IMG/VR virus record: IMGVR_UViG_3300037585_006989
Location: 1 to 32,104 of that record
DNA from: a virus
Direction: 5' to 3' (one strand)
Length of the DNA stretch: 32,104 nucleotides
In this document: one piece after another, positions 6,407 to 32,104 of the stretch
How the letters are laid out: each line of letters starts with the position of its first letter
Position numbering within the stretch: position 1 is the first letter of the stretch
The notes under the pieces: generated by a model
Told to the model about the DNA's origin: nothing
Seen by the model: the letters and a program-made list of their open reading frames with translations, nothing else
The model's database searches: none
Made by a program: the position numbers and the translations under genes

Positions 6407-8907
6407 AAAACGATTATAACGACTTTTTAAAGTCAAAAATTACCATAGCCGAGAAGCACGGATTCGAGATTGACCAAAGCGAACTGCATCCTAACTTATT
6501 ACCACATCAGAAAGACATTTGCCATTGGGCCATTAAAGGCGGTAGGCGTGGGATTTTCGGAAGCTTTGGAGTAGGTAAAACAGTAATTCAATTAGAGATA
6601 GTCCGACAGTTTTTAAAGAAGTTCGGAGGGGTGGGATTAATTACATGCCCTTTAGCGGTGCAATACGAATTTCAAAAAGATGCTGAAATACTAGATATGC
6701 AAGGCAGGTTGAAATACATCACTCACACCGACCAGATAGATGGGAAGCATGATGTGTATTTGACTAATTACGAAAGGATCCGTTCGGGCAATATTGACGC
6801 TTCACTTTTTACCGTGGCAACTTCAGATGAAGCCAGCGGATTACGTTCGCTGGATAGCCAGACTACAGAGGTATTTCTAAGATTATTCAAGCAGGTGAAA
6901 TATAGATTTGTAGCTACCGCCACACCGTCACCGAACCGATATTTAGAATTGACCCACTATGCAGATTATTTAGGTATAATGGATAGAGGGCAAATACTAA
7001 CACGTTTCTTCCAACGAGATAGCACTAAAGCAGGAAACCTAACGCTTTACGATAAGCGGATTAAAGAGTTTTGGCATTGGGTAGCCAGTTGGGCGTGTTT
7101 CGTTAGAAAGCCGTCTGATTTAGGATATTCAGATGAGGGATATGATTTACCCGAAACCAAAATAAACTGGCATAAAGTAAAGGTAGAACGTGAAGCGAAA
7201 GTCGATAGAGGTGGACGTTATAAATTAATCCATCAGATCAATGCTGGAGTAGGCGCGGATAAATCCAAAGAAGATAAAGAGAGCTTAGAAGAGCGTGTTT
7301 CTAAGATGTGGGAAATTGCCCCTGACCCCGAAAAGGAAAGCTTTATAGTTTGGCATTACAGGGAAGATGAACGGCACGCTATCCAAAAAGCATTAGGCAA
7401 AGAATGTAAATCGGTTTGGGGAAATCAGAACCTAAAAGACAGAGAAGATCACCTGACAGGTTTTAGAGATGGAAAGTACAAGATACTAAGCACAAAACCA
7501 GAGATAGCAGGGAGCGGTTGCAACTTTCAGCACCATTGCCACAGGGCAATTTACATCGGACTGACTGACAACTTCAATGACTTCATACAATCGGTACATC
7601 GAATTGTAAGATTCATGCAAAAGCATCAGGTAACCATTGACATCATTTACACCGATGCTCAGGAAGCCATGCGAAAGCGAGTAGAAACCAAGTGGAAACA
7701 ACATAATACTTTACAGCACGAAATGACAGCGATAATTAAAAAATACGGATTGAATTCTGAATTATACAGAGAGGATTTAAAAAGGGAAATGTTCAAAGAC
7801 CGACAGGTTTTAAAGGGTGAAAATTGGGAAGCGGTCAATAATGATTCTGCTATGGAATTACCGAAATGGAAAGATAATTCTATTCACATGTTTTGCAGTT
7901 CCATTCCTTTCGGAAATCATTTTGAGTATTCAGAGAATTACAACTGCTTTGGACATAATACGACTAATGATGCATTCTTTGCGCAAATGGATTACATCAC
8001 ACCTGAAATTTACAGGACATTAAAGCCAGGGCGAATTTGCGCTATCCATGTAAAAGACAGGATCCAATACGGTTATCAGAATGGAGTAGGTTTTATAGAT
8101 CAAATACCATTTTCAGACCATACCAATATGCATTTTATAAAGCACGGCTTTCATTTCATGGGAAGGATTACCATTACCACCGATGTAGTAAGGGAAAATA
8201 ACCAGACCTACAGATTAAGCTATGGCGAAAAGGTAAAAGATGCTACTAAAATGGGCGTGGGAATGCCAGAATATGTATTGATATTCAGAAAGCCACCGAC
8301 AGACAATCAAAACGCTTATGCAGATGATCCAGTAAAGCACGAAAAAGAGCAATATAGATTAAGTAAATGGCAGATAGATGCGCATGGATACTGGAAATCA
8401 AATGGAAAGTCATTATTCGCAACCGAAGATTTGCGAAACATGGAGCTTAAAAACGTGCTAAAAACATGGAAAGCCATTGAAGCATTTGAGAATTACGATT
8501 TTGAAAAACACGTTTCGATTTGTGAAGCCTTAGACCAGCTAGGGAAACTACCTAGAACCTACATGGCTATCCCTCCAATATCTCATAATCCAGAAGTATG
8601 GACGGATATAAGCAGAATGAAAACCCTCAATGCAGACCAAAAGCGAAAGAACCTAGAGAAGCACATTTGCCCTTTGCAGTTGGATATTATCGAAAGGCTA
8701 ATTGAACGCTACAGCGAGAAAGGCGAAATAATAGCCGATATGTTCGGGGGTATTATGTCCGTGCCATACCAAGCGGTTAAAATGGGGCGTAAAGGTATAG
8801 GAGTTGAACTGAATGATTCGTATTGGATGGACGGTGTAAAGCACCTAAAGAAAGTCAGCTATCAAAGCGATAGACAAAGCATGTTTGAAATGGAGGGGGT
8901 TAAATAA
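6403..8907 (+). CDS. SNF2-type helicase/ATPase fused to DNA methyltransferase
   Basis: This 834-residue two-part protein has a superfamily-2 motor at residues 30-460: Walker A GSFGVGKT (53-60), motif II SDEASGL (141-147), motif III ATATPSP (171-177) and motif VI QSVHRIVR (396-403). Residues 475-815 form an amino-methyltransferase, with catalytic-loop motif SSIPFGNHF (499-507), a variant of the S/D-PP-Y motif, and the AdoMet motif ADMFGG (778-783) preceded by HICPLQLDIIERLIERY. Catalytic order places motif IV before motif I, as in the beta/N4-N6 class. No nuclease domain is visible, so it may be a modification or anti-restriction enzyme. The start is the ATG at 6403, coupled to the previous stop; upstream in-frame sequence to 6232 is unlikely to be translated. 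Confidence 0.88.
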   Translation: MKNDYNDFLKSKITIAEKHGFEIDQSELHPNLLPHQKDICHWAIKGGRRGIFGSFGVGKTVIQLEIVRQFLKKFGGVGLITCPLAVQYEFQKDAEILDMQGRLKYITHTDQIDGKHDVYLTNYERIRSGNIDASLFTVATSDEASGLRSLDSQTTEVFLRLFKQVKYRFVATATPSPNRYLELTHYADYLGIMDRGQILTRFFQRDSTKAGNLTLYDKRIKEFWHWVASWACFVRKPSDLGYSDEGYDLPETKINWHKVKVEREAKVDRGGRYKLIHQINAGVGADKSKEDKESLEERVSKMWEIAPDPEKESFIVWHYREDERHAIQKALGKECKSVWGNQNLKDREDHLTGFRDGKYKILSTKPEIAGSGCNFQHHCHRAIYIGLTDNFNDFIQSVHRIVRFMQKHQVTIDIIYTDAQEAMRKRVETKWKQHNTLQHEMTAIIKKYGLNSELYREDLKREMFKDRQVLKGENWEAVNNDSAMELPKWKDNSIHMFCSSIPFGNHFEYSENYNCFGHNTTNDAFFAQMDYITPEIYRTLKPGRICAIHVKDRIQYGYQNGVGFIDQIPFSDHTNMHFIKHGFHFMGRITITTDVVRENNQTYRLSYGEKVKDATKMGVGMPEYVLIFRKPPTDNQNAYADDPVKHEKEQYRLSKWQIDAHGYWKSNGKSLFATEDLRNMELKNVLKTWKAIEAFENYDFEKHVSICEALDQLGKLPRTYMAIPPISHNPEVWTDISRMKTLNADQKRKNLEKHICPLQLDIIERLIERYSEKGEIIADMFGGIMSVPYQAVKMGRKGIGVELNDSYWMDGVKHLKKVSYQSDRQSMFEMEGVK

Positions 8908-9319: not shown

Positions 9320-9775
9320 ATGTATTACACAGGAACAGCGAAGTACCAGAAAGAAGATGAACACGGCAGACTTAAACTAGCCACAGAGCAGTATTTAGTA
9401 GATGCGGTAAGCTTCACAGAAGCAGAAGCGAAATTGTACCAATTCTTAGGCGACAGCATAAGGGGAGAATTTAAAGTCAAGTCGATAAGCGAAAGCGGTA
9501 TAACGGACGTATTCGATTTTGAAGATGGAGGGATTTACTACCAATCGACCGTGGCTTATTTTGTAGCAGAGGAAAGCGGAAAAGAGAAGATGATTAAGAA
9601 TAAGATGCTGATTGAAGCTAAGAACATCACACAAGCCATAGAGCGGACACGTGAGAGCCTTAGTAACATGTTAGTATCATTTGACATTCCAGAATGCAAA
9701 GAAAGTAAAATCATTGAAGTAATTCAGTATGAGCGAGAAGAAGAAGGAAAGGAGGTACATAATGACACTAAATAA
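9320..9775 (+). CDS. DUF4494-like protein
   Basis: This 151-residue protein resembles the DUF4494 family of Bacteroidota: an N-terminal YYTGTAKYQKEDEHGR, then TEQYLVDAVSFTEAEAKLYQ at residues 22-41, and two alpha/beta repeats. The family is common in Bacteroidota mobile elements, and its function is unknown. Its last 14 bases overlap the start of the next gene and also contain that gene's ribosome-binding site. Confidence 0.75.
   Translation: MYYTGTAKYQKEDEHGRLKLATEQYLVDAVSFTEAEAKLYQFLGDSIRGEFKVKSISESGITDVFDFEDGGIYYQSTVAYFVAEESGKEKMIKNKMLIEAKNITQAIERTRESLSNMLVSFDIPECKESKIIEVIQYEREEEGKEVHNDTK
9748..9756 (+). promoter_or_regulatory. Strong Shine-Dalgarno sequence
   Basis: AAAGGAGGT is an unusually complete anti-16S match for a Bacteroidota genome, placed 5 bases before the ATG at 9762. 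It decides the start of the next gene against the in-frame upstream ATG at 9729. It also lies in the coding sequence for the acidic tail of the preceding protein, so part of its purine content may be coincidental. Confidence 0.55.
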
Positions 9776-10199
9776 TTTCATCACCAAAAGCGATATAACT
9801 CATTTCAAAGGAGTTAATAATAAGCAATTTATTTCTATTTCAAACACTCATTTCAGAATTTCATTAGGAGCTGTTGAGGTAATGGATTTAAAGAATATTG
9901 ATAAAATATGCATTGAGATTTTTGAAAAAGAAGGTAATTTATATTTAAAAATTCATGATGCAAAAACTATAAAAGAAAGCTCAATAGAGAAATTTAAACT
10001 AACATCACATGCACACAATAGACTTGAATTTAGAACATCATCTATTAGAAATTTATTGAGCAGTAAATTATCAAGGAACGATCAAGGAATGATTTATTTT
10101 TACTGTATTAATAGTGAAAAAGACCCATTTACATACATATATAGTGAAAAAAAACCTAAACAGTATTTCTTAGATACATATTATAAAAAAATTGAATAG
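9762..10199 (+). CDS. Hypothetical AT-rich gene
   Basis: This 145-residue protein has alternating beta strands (QFISISNTHFRISLGAVEVM, KICIEIFEKEGNLYLKIHDA) and a tyrosine-rich C-terminus (YFYCINSEKDPFTYIYSEKK). I recognise no family. It is markedly more AT-rich than the preceding genes, suggesting separate acquisition. The start is chosen at 9762 because of the Shine-Dalgarno just upstream. A small Cys-rich reading frame overlaps its stop. Confidence 0.65.
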   Translation: MTLNNFITKSDITHFKGVNNKQFISISNTHFRISLGAVEVMDLKNIDKICIEIFEKEGNLYLKIHDAKTIKESSIEKFKLTSHAHNRLEFRTSSIRNLLSSKLSRNDQGMIYFYCINSEKDPFTYIYSEKKPKQYFLDTYYKKIE

Positions 10200-10326: not shown

Positions 10327-10336
10327 TTAGATATTG

Positions 10337-10425
10337 ATTATAACGTCCGATGATAAAAAATCGGGCTCAACCATAAACCTAAATTCAGAGCGTAAACGCT
10401 GCCTACGCCTGTTTTTTATACATTG
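10337..10425 (+). repeat. attC-like site 0 (phage target site, left portion)
   Basis: An outer box ATTATAAC (10337-10344) is followed by an imperfect inverted repeat. CGATGATAAAAAATC-GGGC (10348-10366) pairs with the reverse complement of 10407-10425, with a few unpaired bases. The inner loop contains the small hairpin AGCGT-AA-ACGCT. The site ends with the G of GTT at 10425. Its matching right outer box is not here but after the second cassette (GTTATAAT, 11536-11543), so the site has been split by the cassettes. Confidence 0.8.
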
Positions 10426-10449
10426 TTGGCAGCAGTTAATTTTAATCAG

Positions 10450-10641
10450 ATGGCAAAAAGAAACTTAACTTACAAAAATAGAAAACTTGAAATTGACTAC
10501 AATCAGTCAAAAAACGGCAAGGTATCAATTAATCAAATCAAAATGATTGAAACTGGTGAAGATATTACAAACTATGTTGATAGCAATAACAAACAACGAA
10601 TATCCAATATGATTAAAATTGGTGAAGCGGAGTGGATTTAA
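10450..10641 (+). CDS. Cassette 1 protein, unknown
   Basis: This 63-residue protein fills cassette 1: MAKRNLTYKNRKLEIDYNQS, a glycine/lysine turn, and an NQIKMIETGEDITNYVD segment. It is basic at the N-terminus and rich in asparagine and lysine. It has no recognised family and no obvious toxin, antitoxin or resistance motif. Its stop overlaps the first base preceding the attC-like site. It would be read as part of the phage early transcript. Confidence 0.6.
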   Translation: MAKRNLTYKNRKLEIDYNQSKNGKVSINQIKMIETGEDITNYVDSNNKQRISNMIKIGEAEWI

Positions 10642-10642
10642 T

Positions 10643-10731
10643 TGCTGCCAACGGTCATGGCTAAGAAACGTAGCCACTAATCACGTTTCGTAATGGCACT
10701 AAATCAATTGGCTATGTTTTCTTAGCTGATG
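10643..10731 (+). repeat. attC-like site 1
   Basis: The first box is TGCTGCCAAC. A long imperfect stem follows: CATGGCTAAGAAACGTAGCC (10656-10675) pairs with the complement of 10709-10731 (GGCTATGTTTTCTTAGC then TGATG), with extra unpaired bases on one strand. About 32 bases form the loop. The site ends at the G of GTTGTGG. An 89-bp length and a one-sided bulge pattern are normal for attC sites. The outer box keeps the invariant AAC/GTT but does not fit the full GTTRRRY consensus. Confidence 0.8.
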
Positions 10732-10756
10732 TTGTGGTGCGTTGATTGATAGAAAA

Positions 10757-11002
10757 ATGTCATTAGAGATAGTAAAAAAACTAGAAGAAAAATTAAGTCA
10801 TTTATCTGAAATACAAGATTTAGACGAAGGTATATCATCATTAAGAGCAAGATGGTTACGTACAAGAGATGAGTACAATAAAATTACAACTAGACTAAGT
10901 AAAGAAGGTGCTTATAGTCAAGCCCTAATATTTAGTGAAAGAGCAAAACAAATAGATGAATGTATTTATCAATTAAATAAACTTTATAAAGATGAAAAAT
11001 AG
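10757..11002 (+). CDS. Cassette 2 protein A, helical, unknown
   Basis: This 81-residue protein is predicted to be almost entirely helical with heptad-like leucines and isoleucines (LEIVKKLEEKLSHLSEIQDL, and RAKQIDECIYQLNKLYKD at the end), suggesting a coiled coil. Its last 11 bases overlap the start of the next ORF. An upstream in-frame TTG at 10742 exists, but the ATG at 10757 is favoured. No family is recognised. Confidence 0.6.
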   Translation: MSLEIVKKLEEKLSHLSEIQDLDEGISSLRARWLRTRDEYNKITTRLSKEGAYSQALIFSERAKQIDECIYQLNKLYKDEK

Positions 11003-11285
11003 AAAACAATTTAAAACATCAGAAATTTTAGACAATCTACAAAATATAGGACCATGGTCATTGTATGGATTAGCCATTGAAGCTTTACATCATTACTTTC
11101 CAGAAGAATTTGATTTAAGTGATGATGGTAGTGAATTTCATAAAGATGGAGTTTTAGCAGAAATTAAATTAATGGAGTCTTTAGGGTGTAACATGTGGGA
11201 TGAACTTATAAAAAAGTATCATAATGAAATAGGGTACTATAGACCTAACGGATTATTTGGAACTTTAGAAGTAAATGAGGCATGA
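10992..11285 (+). CDS. Cassette 2 protein B, unknown
   Basis: This 97-residue acidic protein contains LQNIGPWSLYGLAIEALHHY near residue 15 and a histidine/aspartate-rich middle (FPEEFDLSDDGSEFHKDG). It overlaps protein A by 11 bases and protein C by ATGA. The layout looks like an operon inherited as a unit in one cassette. No known domain is recognised. Confidence 0.6.
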   Translation: MKNRKQFKTSEILDNLQNIGPWSLYGLAIEALHHYFPEEFDLSDDGSEFHKDGVLAEIKLMESLGCNMWDELIKKYHNEIGYYRPNGLFGTLEVNEA

Positions 11286-11476
11286 ATATTAAAAAAAGGA
11301 ATAAGGTAGCATTAAAGATACTATTGGAACTTCAAAATAACATTGGAGCAAACAGATGGACAAAGGAGCAATTTATAGAACATAGTTTTAAACTTGCTGA
11401 TCAATATATGGAAAAATGTGAAAAAGATATTAGGTGTTCAAAAAAGGAAGATTTAATAAATGCAATGATAGAATAA
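11282..11476 (+). CDS. Cassette 2 protein C, unknown
   Basis: This 64-residue helical, basic protein (MNIKKRNKVALKILLELQNN; CEKDIRCSKKEDLINAMIE at the end) is coupled by ATGA to protein B. Its stop codon is followed by one base and then the outer box of the attC-like site, the usual economy of integron cassettes. No family is recognised. A small accessory partner of proteins A and B is plausible. Confidence 0.6.
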   Translation: MNIKKRNKVALKILLELQNNIGANRWTKEQFIEHSFKLADQYMEKCEKDIRCSKKEDLINAMIE

Positions 11477-11477
11477 T

Positions 11478-11543
11478 GCACCACAACGTGCGAATAAACG
11501 ACTGCGGAGCAAAGCGGAGTTGCGTTTGATTCGCTGTTATAAT
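11478..11543 (+). repeat. attC-like site 2 with phage right box
   Basis: The first box is GCACCACAAC (11478-11487). The stem is GCGAATAAACGACT (11490-11503) against the complement of AGTTGCGTTTGATTCGC (11518-11534), with three unpaired bases on one side. The site ends at G11536, followed by TTATAAT. GTTATAAT (11536-11543) is the exact complement of ATTATAAC at 10337, so this right box belongs to the phage's own site, now at the far end of the array. Confidence 0.82.
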
Positions 11544-11564: not shown

Positions 11565-12710
11565 ATGCCTAAAAGATACCACGATACGGAGCTAAAAAAT
11601 AAGGATTGGTACTTGCAATTGGAAGCCGATGAGAAAGCGTTTTTTCATTGGATTACAATGGAGCAAAGCACCGCTGGGATTTGGGATGTGAACCTAATTA
11701 TTCCAAAAAGGCTTATTCCATTATCAAAAGATTTCAGTTTAGATACTTTCATTGAAAAATGCAATTCAGACGGCAAAGAAAGAATGATGAAAGTAGCCAA
11801 CGGAAAGAAGATATTTTTTGCACCTACCGTGGAATTTCAGCAGCGTAAAAATGGTGAAAATATTACCTTATTAAACCCAGCCGTGCCAGCTCATAAAGGC
11901 GTATTAAATCAGCTTCGGGAAAACGTGGAGACTAAAGAATGGTTAGCGAAACAGATTAAGGAAAAGCAGATATTCATAGGAAGTAAAGATGAATTAGAGG
12001 GTTACAAGTCCGATAGGCTTACAGAAAAGCAGAAAGATGCGATTAAGAAATCCGACAAATACACCTGCCAGTATTGCGGTTCAACCGACAAAGAAAGCAT
12101 ACAGGTAGATCATATAATACCGAAATCAAGCGGAGGAGATAACATGCGAGACAACCTCATAACAGCATGCGAACATTGCAATATGGAGAAGGGAGCAAAG
12201 CCAGTAATTCAATACATAGCATCGACAGGATTAGACCCACTCGATAACCTAAAAGTACAAATTGAAAAGCTTTTCAAACGTGGTAAAATACCCGAAAATT
12301 TCCAAGGGTTAGCTAAGGGTATAGGTATAGGTATAGGTATAAGTAAAGGTAATAATAATTCTAACAGTAGTAGTTCTAATAAACATTTACTTAAAAAACC
12401 CCCTACCCCCTTTGCGGAAGATTTGAAATCATGGCTAAAGCTTTACGGGAAGGATTCGACCCACAAACATTTAGCTACATTATGGGCTGGATTGAATGAA
12501 AGCGAGAAAAAGAAGATTATATCCAGGACAAAGCTTTTGCAAACCGATGTGAAATTTAGGAAGGAGCCGTATTATTTCCTGAAGGATAGGGATTATGAAG
12601 TGATTGAAAAGTTAGAGGTTTACAAAGCACCGAAATTTGACGGCTCAAAGTACGGAAAGGTAGATTATGAAGCTTACAAGAAAAAGCATTCAAAAAACGA
12701 ACCACCCTAA
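11565..12710 (+). CDS. Replication-initiator-like protein with internal HNH nuclease
   Basis: This 381-residue protein starts with a domain (residues 8-130, including DWYLQLEADEKAFFHWITME and STAGIWDVNL) that resembles the winged-helix N-terminus of phage replisome-organiser proteins. Residues 160-212 form a complete HNH/zinc module: CxxC at 168-171, VDHIIP at 181-186, N197 and CEHC at 202-205. A low-complexity linker (GIGIGIGIS, then NNNSNSSSSN) leads to a basic C-terminal domain (285-381). In lambda-like phages the initiator gene contains the origin, and the repeat in this linker is a candidate. Fusion to HNH is unusual. Confidence 0.7.
   Translation: MPKRYHDTELKNKDWYLQLEADEKAFFHWITMEQSTAGIWDVNLIIPKRLIPLSKDFSLDTFIEKCNSDGKERMMKVANGKKIFFAPTVEFQQRKNGENITLLNPAVPAHKGVLNQLRENVETKEWLAKQIKEKQIFIGSKDELEGYKSDRLTEKQKDAIKKSDKYTCQYCGSTDKESIQVDHIIPKSSGGDNMRDNLITACEHCNMEKGAKPVIQYIASTGLDPLDNLKVQIEKLFKRGKIPENFQGLAKGIGIGIGISKGNNNSNSSSSNKHLLKKPPTPFAEDLKSWLKLYGKDSTHKHLATLWAGLNESEKKKIISRTKLLQTDVKFRKEPYYFLKDRDYEVIEKLEVYKAPKFDGSKYGKVDYEAYKKKHSKNEPP
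12318..12341 (+). repeat. Four tandem GGTATA hexamers in initiator linker
   Basis: Four perfect GGTATA units encode the Gly-Ile repeat in the linker of the initiator-like protein and are followed by an A/T-rich stretch to about 12390. The position recalls iteron-bearing origins embedded in lambda O-type genes, but the units are short and may only encode a flexible linker. Copy changes would alter linker length without a frameshift. Confidence 0.5.
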
Positions 12711-30862: not shown

Positions 30863-32104
30863 TCACTTCAAATAATCACTCCAATCTTCTGGTAGTTTAG
30901 CATCTATAGAACGAAGGTAATTTTTAAGACCTGCAATGCTCTCGTGTCCAGTGATCAGTTGCAAACGTTCAAGCGTTTCCTGTTCCGTATGCTTTTTGAT
31001 TAGCTTTGTGTAAATCTTTTTAGTAAAAGTATGCCTAAAACTGTAAAGCGTGTATTCATTTCCAAGCTTTAATTTAGCTTTTACCTTTGCAAATCGTTTA
31101 CCAAAATATCCTCTTTTATTAGTTTCCAACGTATCCCATTCTCCAGGTGCATCATTCGGAGTAAAAATGAAATAGGCATCATTTGACAAGTCAAGAGATT
31201 GAAAGTAATTCAATAAGATGTCAGGAATACGCTTTATTTTATCCGCTTTATTTTTAGCCCTTACATATAAGATACCTTCCGAAAGGTCAATATCCCGACA
31301 TTGTAATCTACATATCTCTACAGGCCTCAAAAAGTTATATCCGAACAATTGAATAAAGCTTAACAAATACGGATCATTAGCTTTCAGGTATTCGATAATA
31401 GTTTGCAGACTTGCAGAAGTATAGCTGCGGTTACGGATAGTCGTGGTTTTAAGATTCTTAATTGAATCGAAATGATTGACAGATACAATCTCATTACTGA
31501 CCAAATCAGAAAAAACAGAACGAATAGCAGCAAGGTAGTTATTCCGATTTCGTGAACTTGAACTTTTAGAAATGTGATTTAGAAAATCGTTACAATGTTT
31601 TTTAGTCAGGCTTTGAACTGGAGATAAAAGCATATCACGATTAGAAAGGTATTCCATGAATTTAGAACACCTACTTTCATAATCTCCATAGGTGGTAGGA
31701 TTAACAGAGTTCTTTTTAAGTTCCAAGCCGAACTGAATTGCCCCTTTAATGTTAAAAGCTTTCAATTCGGTATTATTAGGATAAGGCGAATAGCCATTGG
31801 ATAATAGATTTTCGATTTCCTCTTTAATAATAAGGATTCGCTTTCGCCTTTGGTCAAAATTAGGAAAGTCACGGTTAACCCCTAAAGTGATAGGGTTTTG
31901 CCGTTTCATTTTGCCTGTCAACGGATCCAAGTATTCAAAATAAACATACCATCGAACCCCTGTTTTAGTCAGTTCGACTTTTTCTTCCTTAGTGAATCTA
32001 GATTTTTCACCTATAATAGAAGGATAAATACGTACATCACTATACGGTTTCACTTTGTATACGTTTTTGTATGCACTTTGTAGCGCAATAAGTAGAGAAG
32101 ACAT
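30863..32104 (-). CDS. int: Phage tyrosine integrase
   Basis: This 413-residue tyrosine recombinase integrates and excises the prophage. Residues 1-110 are an arm-binding region, 118-215 a SAM-like core-binding domain, and 225-400 the catalytic domain: Arg260 in FLRPVEICRL, a lysine near 289-291, Tyr354/Arg357 in YSFRHTF (the usual His replaced by Tyr, as in many Bacteroidota integrases), His387 in TGHESI, and the nucleophile Tyr396 in LKNYLRS. It is not an integron integrase: the IntI-specific extra helix is not evident. It is convergent with the late genes, with 2 bases between the stops. Confidence 0.93.
   Translation of the reverse strand: MSSLLIALQSAYKNVYKVKPYSDVRIYPSIIGEKSRFTKEEKVELTKTGVRWYVYFEYLDPLTGKMKRQNPITLGVNRDFPNFDQRRKRILIIKEEIENLLSNGYSPYPNNTELKAFNIKGAIQFGLELKKNSVNPTTYGDYESRCSKFMEYLSNRDMLLSPVQSLTKKHCNDFLNHISKSSSSRNRNNYLAAIRSVFSDLVSNEIVSVNHFDSIKNLKTTTIRNRSYTSASLQTIIEYLKANDPYLLSFIQLFGYNFLRPVEICRLQCRDIDLSEGILYVRAKNKADKIKRIPDILLNYFQSLDLSNDAYFIFTPNDAPGEWDTLETNKRGYFGKRFAKVKAKLKLGNEYTLYSFRHTFTKKIYTKLIKKHTEQETLERLQLITGHESIAGLKNYLRSIDAKLPEDWSDYLK

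Follow-up and report, generated by a model that had tools for sequence, protein, structure and literature searches.

Two probable integron-type gene cassettes in the early operon of a temperate phage

A short block upstream of an HNH endonuclease gene in a 32-kb virus record (IMG/VR record IMGVR_UViG_3300037585_006989, whose full 32,104 nucleotides are here called the window) probably consists of two integron-type gene cassettes. Integrons are bacterial systems that shuffle resistance genes. The best explanation for the block is a CALIN, i.e., attC-bounded cassettes with no integrase, in the early or replication operon of a temperate phage of Bacteroidota. Integron-type cassettes in a phage early operon had been proposed in the first-pass annotation of this DNA, and the proposal is strengthened by chained joints, an empty site that closes around the block, a covariance-model match at predicted boundaries and a foreign base composition; however, the cassette limits that it placed on the plus strand are in doubt, because the sole site recognized by the attC models has minus polarity, and the two other hairpin sites are not recognized as typical attC.

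Results

Genomic Setting

The gene set of the record is that of a tailed temperate phage and includes genes for DNA processing, an HNH protein, terminase, portal, capsid and tail proteins and a tyrosine integrase (several of these roles were read from translations). The nearest relatives of its helicase/methylase are in Flavobacterium phages (49% identity) and relatives of its DUF4494 protein occur in phages of Bacteroides and Parabacteroides; a Bacteroidota host is therefore likely. The helicase/methylase (6412-8907) reads in translation as a helicase-DNA methyltransferase fusion with ~49% identity to proteins of Flavobacterium columnare phages, and is also matched in Mycobacterium and Arthrobacter phages; no synteny was shared around these relatives in the loci examined. 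Searches for relatives of the region through the HNH, DUF4494, terminase, YqaJ-like and capsid genes gave none or distant loci only, and the collections searched yielded no relative carrying an empty site.

The block lies in the gap that separates a short reading frame, ending near 10331, from the HNH gene (11565). It holds four small ORFs in two blocks, with three hairpin regions (sites 0, 1, and 2) between and around them. The features are listed by position in the window, with the putative cassettes named as in the plus-strand reading:

10337-10344, plus: ATTATAAC, left half of the putative resident site; exact 8-bp complement of 11536-11543 across the block
10345-10424, no strand assigned: site 0, hairpin region running from ATTATAAC to the first GTT; inner stem weak, anchored arm score 5.4
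10425-10434, plus: GTTGGCAGCA, start box of cassette 1; complementary to 10643-10652 and present once in the window
10450-10641, plus: cassette 1 ORF, 63 aa; ends 1 nt short of the 3′ box; Pfam, PHROGs and NCBIfam searches without a match
10643-10652, plus: TGCTGCCAAC, 3′ box of cassette 1; complement of 10425-10434, unique in the window
10653-10730, no strand assigned: site 1, a long hairpin with bulges; arm score 11.8
10731-10740, plus: GTTGTGGTGC, joint of cassette 1 end and cassette 2 start box; unique in the window
10757-11002, plus: cassette 2 ORF a, 81 aa; no family match
10992-11285, plus: cassette 2 ORF b, 97 aa; overlaps its neighbors; no family match
11282-11476, plus: cassette 2 ORF c, 64 aa; no family match
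11478-11487, plus: GCACCACAAC, 3′ box of cassette 2; pairs with 10731-10740, unique in the window
11480-11543, minus: site 2, attC-model match, top in the window for both models; extrahelical base on the R″-L″ arm
11536-11543, plus: GTTATAAT, right half of the putative resident site; pairs with 10337-10344
11565-12710, plus: HNH endonuclease-domain phage gene (Pfam PF01844, E 1e-14); downstream flank, outside the cassettes
30863-32104, minus: phage tyrosine integrase (PF00589 and PHROG integrase), of the Xer/phage type and not an integron integrase

Paired Boxes and a Probable Empty Site

The four 10-bp boxes described in the first-pass annotation are exact, are correctly placed and occur once each in the window. 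The start of each cassette complements its own 3′ box around a GTT/AAC core; the two 10-bp pairs are chained, and complementarity reaches 12 of 13 positions in both cassettes. The bulged inverted repeat reported after each 3′ box is likewise present and ends at the next GTT (10731 and 11536). It is the genes, not the hairpins, that are spanned by the pairing of boxes. A third pair, beyond those reported earlier, links ATTATAAC to the left of site 0 with GTTATAAT to the right of site 2; when both cassettes are removed, these two halves meet as the foot of one hairpin site.

None of the R′ boxes (GTTGGCA, GTTGTGG, and GTTATAA) fits GTTRRRY, which had been taken as a possible sign of a divergent system. 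That caveat is unneeded: a full GTTRRRY starts only 8 of 25 control cassettes beside real integron integrases, so GTTRRRY is a consensus rather than a requirement that defines such cassettes.

The arrangement was compared with chance expectation using a scanner that seeks a GTT-started word, a downstream complement ending in AAC, and then a paired arm extending to the next GTT; the null set was 2000 dinucleotide-preserving shuffles of the window. A single box match proves little, since shuffled windows yield about 0.7 candidates with one self-match and a stem per strand when the thresholds are kept unchanged, and other anchor triplets in place of GTT also give hits. A two-cassette chain with a common GTT joint, in contrast, appeared in 5 of 2000 shuffles, and the chain plus the closing match (10338/11536) in 0 of 2000. 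Rarity lies in the chaining.

The scanner recovered the known attC chain of Tetrasphaera phage TJE1 (three cassettes), the arrays of Shewanella phage M16-3, an integron in Bacteroidia (self-matches of 12 and 8 bp, beside a 422-bit IntI) and arrays adjoining integron integrases in another phylum. The scanner did not recover the attC sites predicted in Polaribacter phage P12002L and so misses some reported sites. Among 25 control cassettes, from the arrays beside integrases in the other phylum, self-matches span 6-11 bp and the imperfect hairpin that leads from R″ to the next GTT has arm scores of 7.4-18.6; the window cassettes, with self-matches of 10 and 10 bp and arm scores of 11.8 (site 1) and 8.8 (site 2), are ordinary in this company, and site 0 is weak (5.4).

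The Bacteroidia integron used as a control (genome G143, contig C40, locus L066, 1-4600) is complete, with two cassettes, one of which has an ORF resembling a DNA methyltransferase. An apparent CALIN in a second Bacteroidia genome (G229:C281, locus L129, 3.7 kb), with two strong attC sites, was not used as support because it resembles a class 1 integron fragment and is possibly assembly contamination.

Recognition by attC Models

Two attC covariance models were built for this analysis, distinct from the published ones: R1 from 29 sites, none from the window, and R2 from 47 sites, with the window excluded from training. On held-out arrays, R1 called sites on the strand that the integrase gene predicts; a wrong-strand call was made at one site only and was weaker (16.6 vs. 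33.5 bits on the right strand). In an integron cassette array or CALIN, at least two sites would be expected to be recognized by such a model; of the three sites in the window, one scored E 0.06-0.07, one 7.7 bits (E 7), and one was not found. The top R1 match was 11480-11543 on the minus strand (17.0 bits, E 0.069; next best 9.2 bits), its AAC and GTT falling precisely on the predicted boxes, and R2 ranked the same interval first (16.7 bits, E 0.058; next best 7.7 bits); site 2 had no plus-strand match above 2.3 bits. Site 0 (10337-10432, minus) was placed third in the window by R2 at 7.7 bits, a score not significant alone, and site 1 was the one not found in register. The models single out the last site, at its predicted boundaries; sites 0 and 1 are not recognized as typical attC. 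In 305 kb of other phage DNA, R2 returned nothing at E ≤ 1; P12002L belonged to this set, so its reported sites are also missed by the model.

When site 1 was folded, its minus strand outperformed 195 of 200 shuffles. On the minus strand of site 2, an unpaired C follows GCGAAT on the R″-L″ arm, which corresponds to an extrahelical G on the opposite strand. An extrahelical base on this arm sets strand choice in attC (PMC2727003), and the base at site 2 is placed for strand selection in the minus polarity.

Known RNA families gave no match at gathering thresholds. The hairpins were also considered as terminators, and this was rejected, sites 1 and 2 being without terminator-like T-runs. Putative Bacteroidota-wide site patterns (AACGTGTATA... 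and CAAC-N-GTATANAANNCATTGC) gave chance-level hits only and were discarded. No near-identical copy of site 2 was found in viral contigs.

Cassette Genes and Recombinase

The cassette ORFs had no convincing family match in Pfam, PHROGs or NCBIfam, and their homologs in phages, plasmids and 395 Bacteroidia genomes amounted to none but one weak 26% hit. A single-sequence structure model of the 97-aa ORF was unusable (pLDDT 41, low confidence). The base composition of the cassette genes is foreign: the cassette 2 ORFs have 27.8% GC, the minimum over all 720-nt stretches of the window, and the cassette 1 ORF has 28.6%, against 38-40% in neighboring phage sequence. Outside the block, an ORF of 145 aa (9762-10199) that overlaps the end of the DUF4494 gene has 24.4% GC between genes of ~40% GC; it has no GTT boxes or hairpin and looks like another foreign insertion.

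The record, which may be incomplete, has no TIGR02249 match to an integron integrase; no intI, which would mark a complete integron, was thus found beside the array. A clear IntI was found in 1 of 395 Bacteroidia genomes sampled. In the phylum of genome G632, 86 of 247 genomes sampled carry integron integrases over the family cut-off, a very high frequency, and some of its genomes have three or four.

Discussion

Under the preferred reading, the phage would first have carried one attC-like hairpin site (ATTATAAC...GTTATAAT) in the gap upstream of the HNH gene, where circular cassettes closed by their respective attC sites would have been inserted successively by cutting and joining at G^TT. 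After such insertion, each cassette would begin with ten bases that complement the 3′ box at its other end, and across the block the two parts of the old site would complement each other. An IntI supplied in trans by the host or a helper, which we infer to be the simplest source, would act as the recombinase on a folded single strand. Integrase-free CALINs are common, and insertion off target or in trans has been proposed as one way in which they arise (PMC8618304; PMC9668308). The cassettes would supply four small co-directional ORFs that could be transcribed with the phage operon, and an accessory role for these ORFs, e.g., in counter-defense, is plausible.

Because the boxes and hairpins are palindromic, the block can be read on either strand, and the movable units may be 10426-10731 and 10732-11536 (plus reading) or 10344-10651 and 10652-11486 (minus reading); neither set is claimed here. 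There is slightly less than an even chance that the same cassettes recombined with minus polarity, in which case site 2 would be the resident attC, the ORFs would oppose the attC direction, and a different hairpin would travel with each gene. Minus polarity is favored by the attC structure of site 2, whose match is the only strong one and falls on that strand (17.0 bits, with plus never above 2.3), by the weak third match at site 0, likewise minus, by an extrahelical base on the right arm for this strand, and by a closed empty site that is compact and folds more stably in the minus reading (-13.6/-16.3 vs. -11.5/-10.0 kcal/mol). Cassette ORFs usually run in the attC direction. The usual sense layout is what the plus reading gives, with ORF starts 24-25 nt past the joints and stops 1 nt short of the 3′ boxes; two successive reversed cassettes would be unusual, and site 1 gives no polarity signal. 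The two polarities predict different movable units, and the question is therefore testable.

Two explanations dispense with IntI-mediated cassette insertion. Accessory genes (morons) could be separated by ordinary intergenic hairpins, the box matches arising from chance and from palindromic hairpin ends. Low-GC accessory genes are frequent in phages, the adjacent ORF at 9762-10199 is of this composition without cassette boxes, and single box-plus-stem candidates are common by chance; nevertheless, this account is unlikely given boxes that pair across genes rather than hairpins, a closed chain that no shuffle reproduced, hairpins free of terminator-like T-runs at sites 1 and 2, and an attC-model match at the predicted limits. 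Alternatively, a recombinase other than IntI, for example the phage tyrosine integrase or a Bacteroidota enzyme, could act on attC-like sites as a lineage-specific, integron-like system. A lineage-specific recombinase is kept in consideration mainly because IntI is infrequent in Bacteroidia; sites 0 and 1 are also unlike typical attC, the boxes are long (10 bp), and the record itself encodes a tyrosine recombinase. Yet a general attC model does match site 2, 12-bp boxes are also found beside a true IntI in Bacteroidia, IntI is able to act in trans, and one putative Bacteroidota site pattern gave nothing above chance when searched, so that such an enzyme is quite improbable here. Equally small is the probability of the broader proposal that a temperate phage with a resident attC docking port in its early operon swaps accessory cassettes there, in a Bacteroidota-specific variant with sites unlike known attC and a recombinase other than the usual IntI.

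Among known systems, the block read as a CALIN most resembles the phage CALINs of TJE1, Pseudoalteromonas phage PH101 and Polaribacter phage P12002L (Qi et al., 2023, PMC9892861), which likewise comprise attC-bounded cassettes with no integrase. Those elements, together with complete integrons, came from a screen of 10,705 phage genomes that included virulent phages, one of them of Polaribacter, and TJE1 attC sites were shown to recombine with IntI1 (PMC9892861). TJE1 shares with the window chained self-matching boxes and small co-directional genes, and P12002L shares a Bacteroidota host; however, TJE1 sites fit the attC model at 26-29 bits (as training sites), whereas one site only fits here, at 17. 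In contrast to all three phages, which are virulent, the present one is temperate, with an integrase gene, and its block is flanked by the two readable halves of a putative empty site. Shewanella prophage M16-3 (MZ568829) is also a temperate phage bearing attC arrays but has its own intI and attI, neither of which is present here. The chromosomal integron of Bacteroidia genome G143 has similarly long self-matching boxes (12 and 8 bp) without full RRRY (GTTAGCA and GTTATGT); it differs in having an IntI (422 bits) next to its array, in its 49% GC and in a site that scores well with the attC models (36 bits for R1 and 55 bits for R2, both trained on that site).

Phage-borne CALINs are already known (PMC9892861), and the block adds a well-marked case to a kind reported for few phages. 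Its most useful feature is the readable old empty site, which makes both the insertion model and its polarity testable, and the four cassette ORFs are candidates for portable phage accessory functions. Phages of this kind could move cassettes from cell to cell in a phylum that seldom carries integron integrases.
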